A DNA stretch of 64,000 nucleotides, taken from contig NZ_AWFI01000019.1 in the NCBI RefSeq assembly GCF_000682775.1, forward strand, positions 1 through 64,000, given 5' to 3'. The notes below the pieces were generated by a model. It was not told the DNA's origin. It worked only from the letters and a program-made list of their open reading frames with translations, and made no database searches. The position numbers and the translations under genes were made by a program. The DNA comes from Hyphomonas sp. L-53-1-40 (lineage in GTDB: Bacteria; Pseudomonadota; Alphaproteobacteria; Caulobacterales; Hyphomonadaceae). Every line of letters begins with the position of its first letter. The stretch's first letter is position 1. This document shows, piece by piece, positions 54,759-62,496 of the stretch.

Positions 54759-54803
54759 GGGGAATGGCGCACCGGAGAGGGTGAAAGTGGGCACTGCTAT
54801 GTG
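54759..54803 (+). repeat. Imperfect direct repeat, copy 1
   Basis: These 45 bases match 56161-56205 at 34 of 45 positions, beginning GGGGAATG in both. The rest of the 345-base interval between acr3 and the DUF2971 gene holds only the acr3 promoter. Copy 1 carries no recognisable coding signal. Confidence 0.55.
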
Positions 54804-54930
54804 CTTGTAATAGTCAGAAAGGTTGACTTTAAAGAAGATGGCGCCTGCTTCTGACTAAGACTAACTATCCGACAACCGCTTAATCCACCTTGGATAACCA
54901 AAATAATCTGATGCTTAGGGCCTGCAATTG

Positions 54931-55818
54931 ATGCACGGATTTCTGACAGACCCCGACGAATATCTTTATCACTACACGCGAGCAGAAGTTGCGGCTGATC
55001 ATATTTTGCCAGATAAGACGCTTCGTTTTTCTCCTCTTTCAAACCTGAATGATCCGCGTGATGCGGGCACTCGGCTGTTCAGTATCAGAAGTGGAGCGAT
55101 CACACCCGAATACGATCACGCCGATGTGCATGCACGATTAAATTCTGAAATTGTCCGTCCCTGCGTCATCGCAAGCTTCACTATCGATTCCCCGGCTGCG
55201 GTCATGCGGCGGCGGCCAGACGGTAGTGAGCCCAATCCAATTTTGGCGCTCCATGAACGTGGATTCGCGCGTCCCCGTATGTGGGCTCAGTACGCCGAAA
55301 ATCATACAGGCGTTTGCATAGTGCTTCGGCGCAACGCCTTGGAAGATGCGGTAATGGCGTTGGCGAGAGCAACTGCGGCTATCGTCGTAAAAGGGCCAGT
55401 GACTTACCAAAACGCCGGTCTTCCGTCCCTTGGTCCCACAGATCCTTTCGCTATCTCGAAAGACAATTTCAATCGACAGGGATTCAGCCAAGCGGCGGAC
55501 CGTCATTTCGACACGCATTGGCGCGGTTTATTCTTCGAGAAGAATGCTGATTGGGAGAGTGAACGTGAGTACCGAATACTAGTACGAAACGAAGTCGAGC
55601 ACGATGCCGCGCTATTTGTCTCAATAGAAGCGGCTTTGGTGGGGGTGGTCTACGGCGAAAAGATAGCGCGGGGACATTTGGCCACTATTGCGCGTAATCT
55701 TCTCGACACAGATATTCAACTGGCAGAAGCGCGTTGGCAAAACGGAATTCCACAAATCACTCCAGATAATCCGAGAGCACTCTTGCAGAGAATGAATGTC
55801 CTCGACAATGGAGGCTAA
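54931..55818 (+). CDS. DUF2971 family protein
   Basis: A 295-aa soluble protein. The family start LTDPDEYLYHYTRAEVAADHILPDKTLRFSPLSNLNDPRD is clear, with RMWAQYAENHTGVCIVL in the middle and EKNADWESEREYRILV further on. DUF2971 proteins are often in defence or mobile regions and resemble ADP-ribosyltransferase-like folds, but no activity can be claimed. ATG 54931 follows a TTG that is unlikely to be used. It starts the accessory region. Confidence 0.85.
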   Translation: MHGFLTDPDEYLYHYTRAEVAADHILPDKTLRFSPLSNLNDPRDAGTRLFSIRSGAITPEYDHADVHARLNSEIVRPCVIASFTIDSPAAVMRRRPDGSEPNPILALHERGFARPRMWAQYAENHTGVCIVLRRNALEDAVMALARATAAIVVKGPVTYQNAGLPSLGPTDPFAISKDNFNRQGFSQAADRHFDTHWRGLFFEKNADWESEREYRILVRNEVEHDAALFVSIEAALVGVVYGEKIARGHLATIARNLLDTDIQLAEARWQNGIPQITPDNPRALLQRMNVLDNGG

Positions 55819-56160: not shown

Positions 56161-56205
56161 GGGGAATGACGTACCGGTGAAGGTGAAGATGGGAACGCCT
56201 ATCTC
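56161..56205 (+). repeat. Imperfect direct repeat, copy 2
   Basis: This is the partner of 54759-54803 (34 of 45 matches, same orientation). The two copies flank the segment containing the DUF2971 and zinc-ribbon genes. Copy 2 lies in a short open frame (VKVKMGTPISMSLND) that ends within about 130 bases. Confidence 0.55.
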
Positions 56206-56294: not shown

Positions 56295-56852
56295 ATGGAA
56301 GCTGGTGAAATCGTCACGCGGCTGCTGGCCGGTAGGGTTATTTCACCCTTGCAGGCACAGCCGCCCTCGTCGCCAGGATTTTATGCTTGGTGGTGCCGCA
56401 GCGATAGACTTAAAGATGCCGATCTGCAGATTCCGCTAGAGGAAAGGCCTCCTGTGCAGTCCGGCTGGTCACTACTTTACGTCGGCATCTCGCCTAACAA
56501 CCCAAACAGCCGACGAAACATCGCGGTCCGTCTGGCTAAGGATCATACTGGGGGGAGTATTGGCAGTTCCACTTTCCGGCAGAGTGTTGCAGCTCTATTG
56601 ATGGAGCGTTTGACGCTTCAGCCCCTTAAGGGGGGTGATCGATCCCGGCTTGTTTCGGAAGAACCGCTATCACGATGGATTGAAGCATCCTGCGGAGTGA
56701 CGTTCGCTTTGGCGGAACGACCTTGGAAGACGGAAGCAGATGTCATCAGATTCCTCAACCCTCCACTCAACATCAGCAAAGGAACTCATCCATTTCGGCA
56801 GGACGTGAGAGATCGCCGAACAATGCTAAGACAGGCTTGCGGAGTTGCATGA
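56295..56852 (+). CDS. GIY-YIG nuclease superfamily protein
   Basis: A protein of about 185 aa starting MEAGEIVTRLLAGRV. The GIY equivalent is PGFYAWWC (residues about 28-33) and the YIG equivalent is LLYVGIS (about 61-66). RRNIAVRLAKDHTGG and STFRQSVAALL follow as in other members, and LPLNIS-like FLNPPLNISKGTHPF closes. The catalytic Arg and Glu can be placed only loosely. It could be a restriction, homing or defence nuclease. An upstream in-frame start at 56217 lies over the direct repeat and is less likely. Confidence 0.75.
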   Translation: MEAGEIVTRLLAGRVISPLQAQPPSSPGFYAWWCRSDRLKDADLQIPLEERPPVQSGWSLLYVGISPNNPNSRRNIAVRLAKDHTGGSIGSSTFRQSVAALLMERLTLQPLKGGDRSRLVSEEPLSRWIEASCGVTFALAERPWKTEADVIRFLNPPLNISKGTHPFRQDVRDRRTMLRQACGVA

Positions 56853-57169
56853 TAATTTAGGCCCTCGCACAAACGCTGCTTCCGTGTAGCCAATCGCGTC
56901 AGGTGAATTTCTAGGGGGGGTGATCGCCTACTACGCGAAGTGGCGCGCCCATTGGGAATCGAAACGCGTGGAAGCATGGAAAGTACGCATCTCGGGCTAA
57001 AGGTATTCGAGCGCTTATTCCCGTCGCATCGCTATAGGAGTTGCTTATTGTAGTCGCCATGCAGCCCTAAGAGGGTTTATCCATTTTTAAGTCTGTATAC
57101 GGTAGAATGTTTCGTATTTGAATAATTGATAAGATGCTTGGCAGCCAAGTTTGAGAAGACGCGGGTGAA
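56853..57169. other. Intergenic stretch without recognised gene
   Basis: This 317-base interval separates the GIY-YIG gene from the convergent HNH gene. It is AT-richer than the core and holds no open frame with a family match, no tRNA and no convincing terminator. Confidence 0.5.
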
Positions 57170-58222
57170 TTAGTCGGGAGCGGCTATCCCAAAAGCAGAA
57201 TTGAGCTTGAGTGCACTTTTGAACGCCTCGAGTTTGACTTTATCGGTTGCAGCAAATGTTGGTTGGATCTGTATGGTCTTTCCGACAAACGGCTTGAGTG
57301 TTGTATCCCATCCTCCGAGCAAATTCTTTTCCGCTAGGACGGAAACTGCGTCTGGGTTAGTCTGAACGACTAAATCAGCATCGATTATCATAACTCTACT
57401 ATCGAAAAGCGCGTGATGGTTCTTGCACAGAGCTAATCCGTTCCAATCATCATCCGATCCTTTGGGATGGTGGACAGGAATGATGTGAGCCGCGTCCAAT
57501 ATGGATAGCTGAACTCCACAAATCGCGCATTTATTCCCGTAGAGCGCCAACACATTCTTTCGAAATTTTGGGTGACGATGGAGTCGGGTTCCTTGTATTT
57601 CTACACGCTTTCGCTCGACATCTTCCAGCGTGATGACTTCGCCCGGCTTTGGTGTGAGCACCTGTTCCAATTCCGGTGATTTCAACAGAATGAACTTAGC
57701 TCGATCCTCGCCAACGACTCCGGCAGTATCAGCTTCGATGGATGTACGTATGAATTTATCGAGGTTATTTGGGTGGATGGCTGCTCTGACTTCGACCGCA
57801 CCACCATGTAGTTTTCGAGTGTCAATTTCCCATCCAGATATGGTTGCGGCTTCAATCATACTGCCTTTGAACTGCAGGTTTTTACTATAGGCGCAATCTT
57901 GATGGTACTGAACCTCCCAGAATGTGAATATGCCAAATAGCGGACTAAATCCGCACACAAACGTTGGAATATTTGCCAAATCGAAATGTTGCGGGCTCCC
58001 GCCACCACATCCTGGAATAATGATCTGGATCTTGTACTCATCCGGAGGCCGGCCGGTGGCTGAAGCGTCCGGTGTTGTGGTCCAGAGATACAGCCGGACC
58101 TTAGGGCCATCACCTAGCGTAAATTCAACGGGTTTGGGCGCGGTTTCACTAGGCTCAAACATCGCGGAGGGAAGCGCTGATTTGAGCGTAGCGAGAAGGC
58201 GTTCTGATGTCATAGCAACCAT
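57170..58222 (-). CDS. HNH-type restriction endonuclease
   Basis: A 350-aa protein. The C-terminal HNH site is CAIC (Cys232, Cys235), AAHIIP (His246), WNGLALCKNHH (Asn261, Cys266, His269, His270) and LFD at about 272-274. The N-terminal 200 residues are predicted beta-rich and would recognise DNA or a modified base; they match no family I know. It lies 79 bases downstream of the large methyltransferase gene on the same strand, so the two probably form a restriction-modification unit. The start may be ATG 58222 or 58213. Confidence 0.85.
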   Translation of the reverse strand: MVAMTSERLLATLKSALPSAMFEPSETAPKPVEFTLGDGPKVRLYLWTTTPDASATGRPPDEYKIQIIIPGCGGGSPQHFDLANIPTFVCGFSPLFGIFTFWEVQYHQDCAYSKNLQFKGSMIEAATISGWEIDTRKLHGGAVEVRAAIHPNNLDKFIRTSIEADTAGVVGEDRAKFILLKSPELEQVLTPKPGEVITLEDVERKRVEIQGTRLHRHPKFRKNVLALYGNKCAICGVQLSILDAAHIIPVHHPKGSDDDWNGLALCKNHHALFDSRVMIIDADLVVQTNPDAVSVLAEKNLLGGWDTTLKPFVGKTIQIQPTFAATDKVKLEAFKSALKLNSAFGIAAPD

Positions 58223-58301
58223 TGCGTTAGTCGCAGTGATTCTCTTGGGTGCGTCAATTTTCTTTCTTAGCGCGATTTCTTATCAGCGCAGAAGGTGGAT
58301 G

Positions 58302-61300
58302 TTACTTGGCCACTCCCATTTCGACTTGTATGGCGTTCCACAGATCTTTCACCTCCGCATAACTGTATGCCACTGCGGGATTGGATGATGCTACCCGACG
58401 CATCACTTCCGCGTAGATGCCCTGGAGCCCTTTGTTTGCGATTTCCGGCTGGTCCGCGATTTCTTTGACGGCCGCTTCCAAGTCGAAACTCCTTGCTTTC
58501 AATGCCTTCCTTTTGGCATTTTTAGTCTTGGCTTTGCGCAAATTGAAAATGACATCAAAATGCGCGACGTCCTCCATGCCGGAGCGTCCCTTGTATCCCT
58601 TATGGCTTTGTTGGGCCCGATCGAGCGAAGAGGCTTCGTGAAATTGGAACCCGGCTTCTTCTGCGGCTTGGTGAATGGCCTCCCAGACATTTGGATCCGT
58701 GTTGTTGAAGACAACGGTTGCCCAACCGCCAGGCTTCAAGACCCGAAACGCCTCCTGCATTGAGGCCAACATCAACGACTTGTAGTCCGCGATTGATTTG
58801 CCGCCTCGATCAACGCCAAGTGACTTATTGACGACAGCTTCCAAAGCTGGATCCGTTAAGTTGCCCAGCCATGACTCCCAAATAAAATTGCAATCAGAGT
58901 AGAAGATGTTCGATCCGAATGGCGGATCCGTGAACACATAGTCGATCGAATTGTCTTCAATTCCGTTCAGAGATGAAGCACTCCCGGTTATTATAGTCGG
59001 GGCTTCAATTTCTTCTGGCTTAAACGCGCGATAGTAACGTTGAAGTTGACCAATCTTGTTCCGCATTACATCGAGTACGTTTGCTTCTGAAGACAATTGA
59101 GGCACATACAATGTGCCGGTTAGTGGTCTTTGACCACCACGAGCGTTGAAGCGACGCATTTTGGTGCCGTGCCAGGCAGTGTTCGTAAATGCGAACGCAA
59201 GTACCCGCTTCAAGCGGTCGTCAGTCTCCTTTAGAATGGCACGCCATATAATGGCGAGAGCTTTGAGGTTGCGGGGCGTGTAGAAGTCTTTCAGGTCGTT
59301 AATGCCACGCAGGTGGAGCGCGCATCGTATGTGCATCTCTCGATCAGAGGCTAAGCTGGTAGTAGGGTACCAAGCGTCTATTTCATCAAAGTGTGTGGAA
59401 GTTGCTTGGGCAATGTCGAATGCAGTCGGGGCACGCTGCTGCAGGGGGCCGCTCGGACTAGCATAGCAAACCCATGAAGGCTCTGACCCCAGATCTACCA
59501 ACGCGGACCTTTTGATCTCAACAGCGCAATCTGGACAATTCAACGTGGTGCCTATTTTTCCGGTTTTCTTGTCAATTGCATCCCACAAAAGAAATTGACG
59601 TTCGCAATGTGGGCACTGATGTTTGCTGCTCCACATCATCCAACGAAGCACCGCTGGCTTTCCATCATCCGATTCCGTGGCGTAGAGGCTGTCCAAATCC
59701 TCCTTTACCTCTGCCTCCAGTCGATTGAACGCTGCTTTCAATGCAGTTGGGTCACACGGGCGAGTATGGTTCCAGGCCAAATGTGCTGCAGCAGGAGACA
59801 GGTCATTCAAGATTGCTCGTCTTCCCGCCAGTGCACACGCGACACCCGTCATTCCTGAACCGGAAAACAAATCAAGCACTACGTCTCCGGGCTTCGAATA
59901 GTGCTCAAGAAATGGAGTTATCGCTTCGGGGGGCACCTTAGTGTGATAGCTATGGGCAGTGTAATAGGTGCTATTCTTCTTCCCTTTTGTGGAAAGTGGC
60001 CCTATTGATTTAGATGGTGCGGTCGGGTTCGAAGTTTTGGGATAGGCTTCAGGACAGCCCAAGTACCCTGCTAAAAAGTCGGAGTCACTTTCACCTTCTT
60101 GCGCAGCAAGATACGTCCATTTGCCATTCTCTCTTTTGGCTCCAAGTTTAATCAGCGCACTCTCGATACTCGGCATTGTTATGCCGATTACGGACAAATC
60201 CCTTTCCAAGAGATTGCGAATTACTCGGGAATAAACCTCGTCCAGCGGTAGGCCCTCAGGGTGGGTGGGGGCCTCAAAAGCGGACCGAGTCAGATCCTCT
60301 ATATCGCCATCCTTTAAAGCAGCGGGCAGTGCAACTTGAGTCAGCTTGCTCTTCTTTTCTAGACACATAACCAGATCAAGGGTGGTAACCCGTTCTTTTC
60401 CGCTGACGCCCTTGACTCCTTTGATGGATGGCTGGCCCTTGTTCAGAATGTGCGCACTTTGAATATTATACCCGGCCGCTTGCACCGACTCGCGAAGAAC
60501 TTCCCAGACCTTGTCGTTCGAGTTTGAGAACGCCAACACAGCCATACCGCTAGGCTTCAAAACTCTAGCAGTTTGTTCAAAAGAACGCTGCATAAGTTCG
60601 CCATAATCTGCCAGTGACTTGCCGCCTGAGCTTGTGCTTCTGTGCTTGTTTACGACCATCTCGGCCGATTGATCGGTGAGTTGGCCCAGCCAAGCCTCCC
60701 AAAGCAGAGAAGCATCTGCATAGAATATGTTCGACCCAAAAGGCGGGTCCATGAAAACCATGTCTACCGTGCCATCCGCCACGCAACCAATATCGTCTGC
60801 CGACCTTTGAAACACGTCAGCATATACGCCACCTGGTTGAAATGACTTGTAGTACCGCAGAGCGTCGGCGGCTTTGCGTTTAAATAGGCTCCATACGTTC
60901 CATTCATATCGAAGGGACGAAATGTACAGCGTTCCAGTCATCACATTTGTAGGGCGTTTCGCGTTCCACTGGTACCGCTTCGATGCTCGATTTACGCAAG
61001 CTGTAAATGCAAACATCAACGCTTCTCGGGCGCGCTCACTTTCGATCGATAGAATCGTATGTCGGAGAGCAGCAAGTGCATGTAGGTTCCGAGAAGTGAA
61101 GAAAGCAGTTACGCTGTTGACCCCCATTTTTTGGTGGCCCGCTCGCCACATTTCCCTTTCGCTAGTAAATTTAACGTCCGGTACCCAATAGGGAATAGGT
61201 GTCTGATTTGATGCGGAAATTAGATCCAGTTCGGCTTTGGTGGTTTCATGAGATTGAATATTTCTCCCTGAGGCCGACGTATGAGTCACAACGGGCTTTT

Positions 61301-62321
61301 CACCAATCCAATTCAGAGAAGATTTTTCATGCTTGGACGAACATCGTGGGCATTCGATCTCTCGTCCGATTCGATTTTTTTCTCGCTGTACAACGTCCCA
61401 GAACAAGATCTCTCGCTTGCACGAAGGGCACAAGAACACATCACTCCACGTCGTATACTCGATAGTTCTTGTGTCTCCAGGTACTCGATAGAGCCACTCC
61501 ATTGTGGGTCCAATGCGTTCCGCCACGAGTTGAAGGTTGCGCTCCAGGTCTTCCGGCGGGCAAGGAGTGGTATAATTTTTTGAAATGTGCACAGCAGCTG
61601 GAGACAAATCTGAAAGAAGCGCGTTCCTCCCAACCGAAAGCGCAGCAACACCTGTCATACCCGAGCCGCAAAAAGGGTCGTAAACAAGCTCCCCCTTGTG
61701 AGTGAATGCTTCGATAAAAGGAGTGATTGCTTCAGGCGGGACCTTTGTGTGGTAACTGTGAGCTCTGTAGGCAGAAGAGGTTTTTGCAACAGTAATTTTT
61801 TCGGGTAGGCTTCGTGCTTTCTTGGGTCGGTCACGCGTCGGCAAGTACACCTTAGCAGGCGCCTGCGGGAGGCAGACTATTTGGTCTTCGGCGGTTCGGC
61901 GCACCATCGCGATGGCAGACGCGGTATTGTTTTCAATGTAATGTTCGACATCAGTCGGCAGTCTCCTTGTCTCCAAACAAAGTAGGTCTGTGGGCATCAT
62001 CAAAATCTGCGACAGGCCATCAATTTGTTCGTGTGTTGGCTGCCTCTTGCCGCTTTCGATCAAGCTCACGAGCGATTTTGTGACGCCAAGTTTCGTGGCT
62101 AAATCCGATTGACTCAGGCCCAGATTTTCTCGGCGACTTTGAATTGAAAGAAAACTATTGAACGTCAATTTGAGTTCCGATCCGAATCGATTTTTTCTTG
62201 ATTTGTTCTTTTGGATAGGGTGTTTACAAGAAACGTCAACGGGGAAAGTCATGTTTCGCTCGAGACCTTGGTCAATAAGCATATCGAACGGCGGAACCGC
62301 CTGAGCGTTGAGATTTCTCAA
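58302..62321 (-). CDS. XRE-fused tandem DNA methyltransferase (two modules)
   Basis: A 1339-aa protein. Residues 54-112 are an XRE helix-turn-helix (LGLSQSDLATKLGVTKSLVSLIESGKRQ), like a restriction controller. Two methyltransferase modules follow. In module 1 the SAM motif is YDPFCGSGMTG at 214-224 and the catalytic DPPF at 525-528. In module 2 they are LDLFSGSGMTG at 816-826 and DPPF at 1132-1135. Each module has SYHTKVPPEAITPF ahead of the SAM motif and a zinc-ribbon-like set (Cys298/301/324/327 and Cys903/906/929/932) between. A linker (about 690-740) joins the modules. They are N6-adenine or N4-cytosine type by the DPPF motif. The start may be ATG 62321 or 62252. Each half may methylate one strand of an asymmetric site. 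Confidence 0.9.
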   Translation of the reverse strand: MRNLNAQAVPPFDMLIDQGLERNMTFPVDVSCKHPIQKNKSRKNRFGSELKLTFNSFLSIQSRRENLGLSQSDLATKLGVTKSLVSLIESGKRQPTHEQIDGLSQILMMPTDLLCLETRRLPTDVEHYIENNTASAIAMVRRTAEDQIVCLPQAPAKVYLPTRDRPKKARSLPEKITVAKTSSAYRAHSYHTKVPPEAITPFIEAFTHKGELVYDPFCGSGMTGVAALSVGRNALLSDLSPAAVHISKNYTTPCPPEDLERNLQLVAERIGPTMEWLYRVPGDTRTIEYTTWSDVFLCPSCKREILFWDVVQREKNRIGREIECPRCSSKHEKSSLNWIGEKPVVTHTSASGRNIQSHETTKAELDLISASNQTPIPYWVPDVKFTSEREMWRAGHQKMGVNSVTAFFTSRNLHALAALRHTILSIESERAREALMFAFTACVNRASKRYQWNAKRPTNVMTGTLYISSLRYEWNVWSLFKRKAADALRYYKSFQPGGVYADVFQRSADDIGCVADGTVDMVFMDPPFGSNIFYADASLLWEAWLGQLTDQSAEMVVNKHRSTSSGGKSLADYGELMQRSFEQTARVLKPSGMAVLAFSNSNDKVWEVLRESVQAAGYNIQSAHILNKGQPSIKGVKGVSGKERVTTLDLVMCLEKKSKLTQVALPAALKDGDIEDLTRSAFEAPTHPEGLPLDEVYSRVIRNLLERDLSVIGITMPSIESALIKLGAKRENGKWTYLAAQEGESDSDFLAGYLGCPEAYPKTSNPTAPSKSIGPLSTKGKKNSTYYTAHSYHTKVPPEAITPFLEHYSKPGDVVLDLFSGSGMTGVACALAGRRAILNDLSPAAAHLAWNHTRPCDPTALKAAFNRLEAEVKEDLDSLYATESDDGKPAVLRWMMWSSKHQCPHCERQFLLWDAIDKKTGKIGTTLNCPDCAVEIKRSALVDLGSEPSWVCYASPSGPLQQRAPTAFDIAQATSTHFDEIDAWYPTTSLASDREMHIRCALHLRGINDLKDFYTPRNLKALAIIWRAILKETDDRLKRVLAFAFTNTAWHGTKMRRFNARGGQRPLTGTLYVPQLSSEANVLDVMRNKIGQLQRYYRAFKPEEIEAPTIITGSASSLNGIEDNSIDYVFTDPPFGSNIFYSDCNFIWESWLGNLTDPALEAVVNKSLGVDRGGKSIADYKSLMLASMQEAFRVLKPGGWATVVFNNTDPNVWEAIHQAAEEAGFQFHEASSLDRAQQSHKGYKGRSGMEDVAHFDVIFNLRKAKTKNAKRKALKARSFDLEAAVKEIADQPEIANKGLQGIYAEVMRRVASSNPAVAYSYAEVKDLWNAIQVEMGVAK

Positions 62322-62343
62322 GGTTCAGCCACCTGGCTGAGCG

Positions 62344-62496
62344 AATGTTGATCGGTCCTATTTGGGCGGGCTCGAACGCGTTGCGAAGGTGCTGGATGTG
62401 CCTCTTCGCGATCTTTTCGCGGAGTACGATCCAGAGGTGGGCGAGATTGAGGGATTGCCGCCGGACGGAAGCCCAGCGAAACCTGATTACAGCTAG
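62344..62496 (+). pseudogene. Truncated XRE-regulator remnant
   Basis: In frame the sequence reads NVDRSYLGGLERVAKVLDVPLRDLFAEYD and ends PAKPDYS. A complete XRE protein would have about 12 more residues between GGLE and RVAK (the 'RGxRNPxxxxL' segment) and a normal N-terminus. A stop lies just upstream in this frame. So this is the end of a regulator gene, internally deleted and cut off, lying head-to-head with the methyltransferase gene. Confidence 0.7.

Follow-up and report, generated by a model that had tools for sequence, protein, structure and literature searches.

Within a stretch of 64,000 nucleotides from Hyphomonas sp. L-53-1-40 (NZ_AWFI01000019.1, positions 1–64,000; hereafter the window, in whose coordinates positions are given), a double DNA methylase with a fused HTH domain, P0001 (58302–62321, minus strand), is followed by P0002 (57170–58222, minus strand), a nuclease that combines an MTaX1 and an HNH_2 domain according to Pfam. 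The parts belong to known families whose combination has been little described, and on balance we favor the interpretation that they form a mobile restriction-modification-like module, in which the methylase pair would mark DNA, the MTaX1-HNH protein would cut unmarked DNA and the HTH would exert control. The original prediction of a restriction-modification system with a fused controller was a fair description of the methylase-nuclease module, although an incomplete one, as it left out both MTaX1 and the kinship with BREX type-3 systems.

The reading frame listed for P0001 encodes 1339 amino acids and starts with TTG. Given the ATG codons at 62282 and 62252, one of which is probably the true start, the protein may be about 1316–1326 amino acids long. 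As had been predicted, a single chain combines an HTH with two methylase modules, each having its own DPPF motif and cysteine set. The XRE-type HTH occupies residues 60–107 (62001–62144, minus strand; HTH_3, E = 1.2e-9), and N6_N4_Mtase is matched in three stretches (E = 6.2e-42). From motifs and Pfam matches, approximate borders can be drawn for a first unit, M1 (residues about 165–660; 60342–61829, minus strand), and a second, M2 (residues about 770–1265; 58527–60014, minus strand). Both units separately contain an HSYHTKVPP block, a motif I (DPFCGSG at residue 215 in M1, DLFSGSG at 817 in M2), CxxC pairs (298 and 324; 903 and 929) and DPPF (525; 1132). These motifs are intact in both halves, which are 39% identical to each other. 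Alpha-class adenine methylases have the same order of motif I, insert and DPPF.

The fusion of HTH, M1 and M2 is not new as such, contrary to the expectation that it would be unusual among known systems. A single PADLOC profile, PDLC03312 ('MTase_II', Type II methyltransferase), resembles P0001 from end to end, with residues 55–1332 aligning to profile positions 60–1336 of 1344 at 1649 bits, HTH included; it also matches the relatives P0006 and P0007. However, PDLC03312 is a label for one protein, and no library entry names the MTaX1 partner or the BREX type-3 kinship. In a literature search of open-licence papers, we found no description of the tandem HTH-M1-M2 layout. The strength of the profile match, the Pfam domains and the existence of fused relatives 55% and 48% identical to P0001 rule out that P0001, P0002 and the neighboring P0003 are chance reading frames, and confirm the three predicted genes as real.

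The second-best PADLOC model for P0001 is the BREX type-3 methylase PglXI (E = 2.4e-207). Each half is about 30% identical to the BREX type-3 PglXI/BrxXI methylases, which by sequence comparison are its closest kin, and not the ordinary Type II pairs to which the halves had been likened. A four-cysteine insert between motif I and DPPF, a feature of the PglXI/BrxXI type, is found in both M1 and M2. The available portion of a 2026 survey (PMC12839542) describes for BrxXI an insert of ~250 residues that separates strands 2 and 3 and carries a four-cysteine motif; searches with this insert are stated there to yield no homologues outside BREX, yet the insert is also reported in related DUF499 systems. 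PglXI/BrxXI and the DUF1156 methylases of BREX-related systems share the motif order I, insert, IV with the halves of P0001. Unlike PglXI/BrxXI, P0001 has two units per chain and an N-terminal XRE HTH, and lies on an element without BREX genes. Judged by length or scanned family, PglZ, a BrxC-type ATPase and a helicase are all missing among the reading frames of the element (those of 239 and 116 amino acids lay outside the scan), on which grounds a BREX system was rejected.

Fused relatives are encoded in Qipengyuania aestuarii (P0006, locus L002; 55% identical), in genome G403 (P0007, locus L012; 48%) and on a viral contig (L023; 48% in the best segment), where the gene runs off the contig end. 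On actinobacterial plasmids (L005 and its near copy L006), HTH, M1 and M2 are encoded separately by three neighboring genes, with the small separate HTH frame of L005 overlapping M1 by 4 bp. All five HTH-M1-M2 loci thus possess an HTH, fused in four and as a separate gene in L005. We calculated a tree from the halves of the four fused proteins and one split pair, a lone phage half (L026) and BREX-3 methylases. The five M1 rows form one clade (support 100/98) and the five M2 rows together with the phage half another (95/96), with the BREX-3 methylases outside both. Since M1 and M2 halves separate in this way across four fused proteins and a split pair, both units have been kept and, on the sequence evidence, represent two old, conserved lineages. 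The two-unit layout may predate the fusion, or the split seen on actinobacterial plasmids may be secondary; the tree is compatible with either. The phage half itself (L026:7899–10019) is an M2-like half-methylase with no MTaX1 seen nearby, possibly an anti-restriction methylase.

The HTH-M1-M2 family is rare. Counting the genome of origin in each case, the host family yielded one matching genome out of 105, the class two out of 385 and the phylum one out of 398; among 27 genomes from the order to which G403 belongs, G403 itself was the sole match. A scan of genome contigs with one protein returned one locus, a yield limited by the scan method, one scan of viral contigs gave no confirmed relative, and P0001 had no match in the phage collection.

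P0002 begins 79 bp past the P0001 stop. Its HNH_2 domain (residues 232–281; 57380–57529, minus strand; E = 9.8e-12) contains an intact motif, CAIC ... DAAHI ... NGLALCKNHH. The adjacent HNH gene had thus been predicted correctly, but the domain that precedes its nuclease part had been overlooked: residues 41–158 (57749–58102, minus strand) match the Pfam family MTaX1, 'Methylase-associated X1' (PF20296, E = 2.6e-13), with the same span found in the genome search, and a score of 50.9 bits against a Pfam gathering cut-off of 25 places the protein in this family. The phage collection contained one match to P0002, over the HNH part alone.

To characterize the MTaX1 part, we used AlphaFold models of P0002 (pLDDT 68, pTM 0.64) and its relative P0022 (pLDDT 69, pTM 0.49), both made from the same six alignment rows. 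The top fold matches of the MTaX1 part in both models are I-Ssp6803I, the SPARDA effector chain, Hjc and RecU, all of which we take to have the PD-(D/E)XK fold. For I-Ssp6803I, the two models gave Z-scores of 7.8 (rmsd 4.1, 136 aligned) and 7.5 (rmsd 3.7, 126 aligned), and for the SPARDA chain (9qbp) 7.4 and 6.7, values under 8 that may reflect a common arrangement. Foldseek ranked the SPARDA chain best, with E-values of 2.4e-3 and 2.7e-4. In an alignment of 19 MTaX1 rows, inspected by eye with a subjective placement of the motif, the (D/E)xK signature before the second helix is complete in one row; the first-position acid is present in one (P0015) and the last-position lysine in seven. If the PD-(D/E)XK-like fold is right, most MTaX1 copies would thus be readers rather than cutters.

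Comparison of the double-methylase loci identifies MTaX1 as the constant partner of the methylase. Among those with readable flanks, Pfam detects MTaX1 in four of four (Hyphomonas, L002, L005 and L012), and an HNH domain adjoins the methylase in two (Hyphomonas and L012); on this sequence evidence, HNH is not a constant partner, and the conservation of an HNH gene beside the methylase, on which the prediction had been staked, holds by half. In L012, the MTaX1-HNH gene lies upstream of the methylase, at 403 bp, and its MTaX1 is of another subtype than the Hyphomonas one, for which reasons the methylase-nuclease pairing probably formed more than once. In L002, MTaX1 is fused to HTH_17 and followed by PbeA-like and PbeC-like genes; a small frame there was read as DndE-like and matches no library. 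In L005, MTaX1 stands alone; the next genes encode an AAA_5 ATPase and a 668-residue protein without family match. A fragment beside L012, without Pfam match, looks by eye like the tail end of the ABC protein from L002.

The linkage is also evident from the side of MTaX1. Among the matches listed, 17 of the 18 further loci found in this way (L009–L012, L018–L020, L033, L051–L056 and L059–L061) have a DNA methylase no more than 5 kb from MTaX1, the sole failure being L057, with a dcm gene at 5.4 kb. The linked methylases are of N6A type, N4C type (SPPF) and C5 type. L060 was taken as MTaX1 from its 75% identity to P0010. Kept out of the count were the Hyphomonas window and L002, L005 and L006, found via the methylase; L058, where Pfam finds no MTaX1; L062, on the same contig as L033; L034, L063 and L064, HNH-side or other matches; H78, H79 and H103, the same records as H41, H42 and H43; and H81, H83 and most of 36 records with matches over the HNH part only. 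For comparison, two of eight HNH_2 plasmid loci without MTaX1 had a DNA methylase at that distance or closer, these controls being few and picked by hand from 33 remaining records (Fisher p = 0.0008; 0.004 or 0.02 when one or both of the doubtful methylases among the controls are included). Methylases were called by annotation or motif, in the controls by annotation and then a motif script, which found one; the dcm of control L069 was called by annotation alone, and the methyltransferases of L068 and L070 were not counted as DNA methylases. In the phylum sample, MTaX1 occurred only in the genome of origin (1 of 398).

MTaX1 has been seen beside methylases before, in MTaX1-containing restriction-modification and CxC-ABC-ATPase systems (NAR 2024, PMC10853773), as far as the accessible text of that paper goes. 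Locus L002 resembles the latter, in that its double methylase is followed by MTaX1, PbeA-like and PbeC-like genes; in the same portion of the paper, MTaX1 is associated with cytosine methylases, and a double PglXI-like methylase with HTH is not mentioned. The MTaX1-HNH protein need not be the main cutter, since L010 and L018 have another REase gene beside the MTaX1-HNH gene and methylase. On a Hymenobacter plasmid, MTaX1 is fused to the N-terminal domain of GmrSD (L057:7001–8566), and haloarchaeal plasmids (L051, L052, L055, L059 and L053) share a recurring cassette in which a Dam-like methylase and a large DNA methyltransferase accompany MTaX1, itself fused to an AAA_5 ATPase or close to one.

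In the module that we favor, each methylase half would methylate host DNA, probably at N6-adenine. The simplest arrangement would have one half act on each strand of an asymmetric site, two sites being the other option. MTaX1 would recognize DNA, and HNH would cut unless the host mark is present. In Type II restriction-modification, a methylase gene and a nuclease gene would be expected to stay linked among relatives; across the four readable loci, the Hyphomonas one included, this linkage concerns MTaX1 in all and HNH in two. Type IIS pairs such as M.FokI offer a partial precedent, in which two adenine methylase units are fused and each serves one strand of an asymmetric site. The likeness lies in the two fused units; the M.FokI system is not known to include an HTH or MTaX1, and its nuclease is FokI rather than HNH.

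A wider reading, a plug-in immunity layout not described before, is offered tentatively, as one that may well prove wrong. A methylase pair of BREX-3 lineage, under its fused HTH, would write a self mark outside BREX, and a degenerate PD-(D/E)XK-like MTaX1 would read that mark. The killing part would be exchangeable and, with the same reserve, could be HNH, GmrSD, an AAA_5/McrB-like ATPase or the PbeA/PbeC helicase-ABC pair; MTaX1 would conceivably serve as a general self-mark sensor for N6A, N4C and C5 marks alike. The interest of the locus lies in a methylase pair of BREX-3 type outside BREX and in the proposal that MTaX1 is a sensor that stays constant as effectors are exchanged. Should MTaX1 respond to a missing mark whatever its effector, one small domain would explain self/foreign discrimination in many methylase-linked defences. 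The locus also presents methylases of BREX type-3 kind outside BREX, in a set of just two genes, few enough for laboratory rebuilding, which would be the first simple route to learning what such methylases mark.

The strongest rival makes P0002 a modification-dependent, Type IV-like nuclease directed against foreign modifications, with the double methylase a separate or loosely coupled marker. Profile comparison of P0002 yields four solved HNH relatives with E-values below 0.02, TagI (6.2e-11), VcaM4I (1.9e-5), McrA (8.5e-5) and ScoMcrA (0.019), all of them modification-dependent or McrA-type enzymes, and the HNH part of the P0022 model resembles TagI (Z 10.3) and VcaM4I (Z 8.5). GmrSD and AAA_5 ATPases are effectors of the modification-dependent kind as well, and MTaX1 is fused to the former in L057 and to the latter in L051, L052 and L055. 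Yet the HNH resemblance is restricted to the catalytic domain, a nuclease triggered by the mark of its own partner would kill the host, and linkage to three kinds of methylase in 17 of 18 loci is easier to understand if the mark matters to MTaX1. We therefore regard this rival as unlikely, though it deserves to be taken seriously.

Control by the HTH, the third component of the favored module, fits its presence in all five loci, whether within the methylase chain or encoded separately immediately ahead of M1. We infer that the HTH regulates its own methylase gene; it would bind near its own promoter and so set the level of the methylase, perhaps also of the nuclease. A candidate operator lies just upstream of both ATG starts (62301–62328), a weak palindrome consisting of a 13-nt inverted repeat with a 2-nt spacer and 85% complementarity; an equally good repeat occurred in 8 of 300 shuffles, a weak signal with thresholds set afterwards. 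A regulatory DNA-binding region on a methylase is known from M.SsoII, whose N-terminal region regulates transcription according to the accessible part of PMC3978073, and in this respect P0001 would be similar. M.SsoII is a single C5 methylase, however, whereas P0001 has two N6-type units. A frame without start (62347–62496, plus strand), located between the methylase and TetR genes, looks by eye like the C-terminal portion of a further XRE-type repressor.

The methylase and nuclease genes lie on an 11.2-kb integrative element at a tRNA-Arg gene. A serine integrase gene (contig 64393–66006) ends inside tRNA-Arg(CCG) (65977–66053), and its product would insert the module-bearing element there. 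A repeat search located a left att-like repeat (54761–54780) and its right copy, outside the window at contig position 65973, at the 3' end of the tRNA gene. The element has a G+C content of 51.0%, against 59.0% for window positions 1–54700. A relative (G037, L048) has the empty site, with orf352, arsH, tRNA-Arg and TraB together and the element absent. Such a setting, together with the rare and scattered presence of the genes (1/105, 2/385 and 1/398 genomes, own included), would suit a selfish pair that maintains the element by killing cells that lose it, with phage defence secondary; defence genes are often found on such elements, however, and such a role is compatible with the favored module, so that we consider this explanation on its own improbable. 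Least probable of all is a solitary methylase with an epigenetic or anti-restriction role among unrelated island genes: it can point to the fused L023 beside phage tail genes at a viral contig end and to the lone half of L026 in a phage contig, but MTaX1 is present in all four readable loci, and the L023 contig ends inside the gene, leaving its downstream side unreadable.

The element encodes a DUF2971 protein, a frame of 116 amino acids, a GIY-YIG protein, MTaX1-HNH, the methylase, TetR, a frame of 239 amino acids and a recombinase. P0003 (56217–56852, plus strand; GIY_YIG_2, E = 8.9e-20) is convergent with P0002 at a stop-to-stop distance of 317 bp, as predicted, but begins before the position 56295 given for it; it matched nothing in the other loci fetched, only its own, and on that basis was rejected as a part of the system. 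A third, poorer att-like repeat at 56163 suggests that two cassettes, a DUF2971 part and a part from GIY-YIG to integrase, accreted at one tRNA. The DUF2971 protein (54928–55818, plus strand; Pfam E = 7.7e-9) matches PADLOC candidate-defence models PDC-S31 (E = 4e-15). Another relative (G052, L050) carries a different insertion at the same tRNA-Arg(CCG), which contains a partial tRNA copy of 50 bp as well as, by eye, a tyrosine-integrase-like gene.
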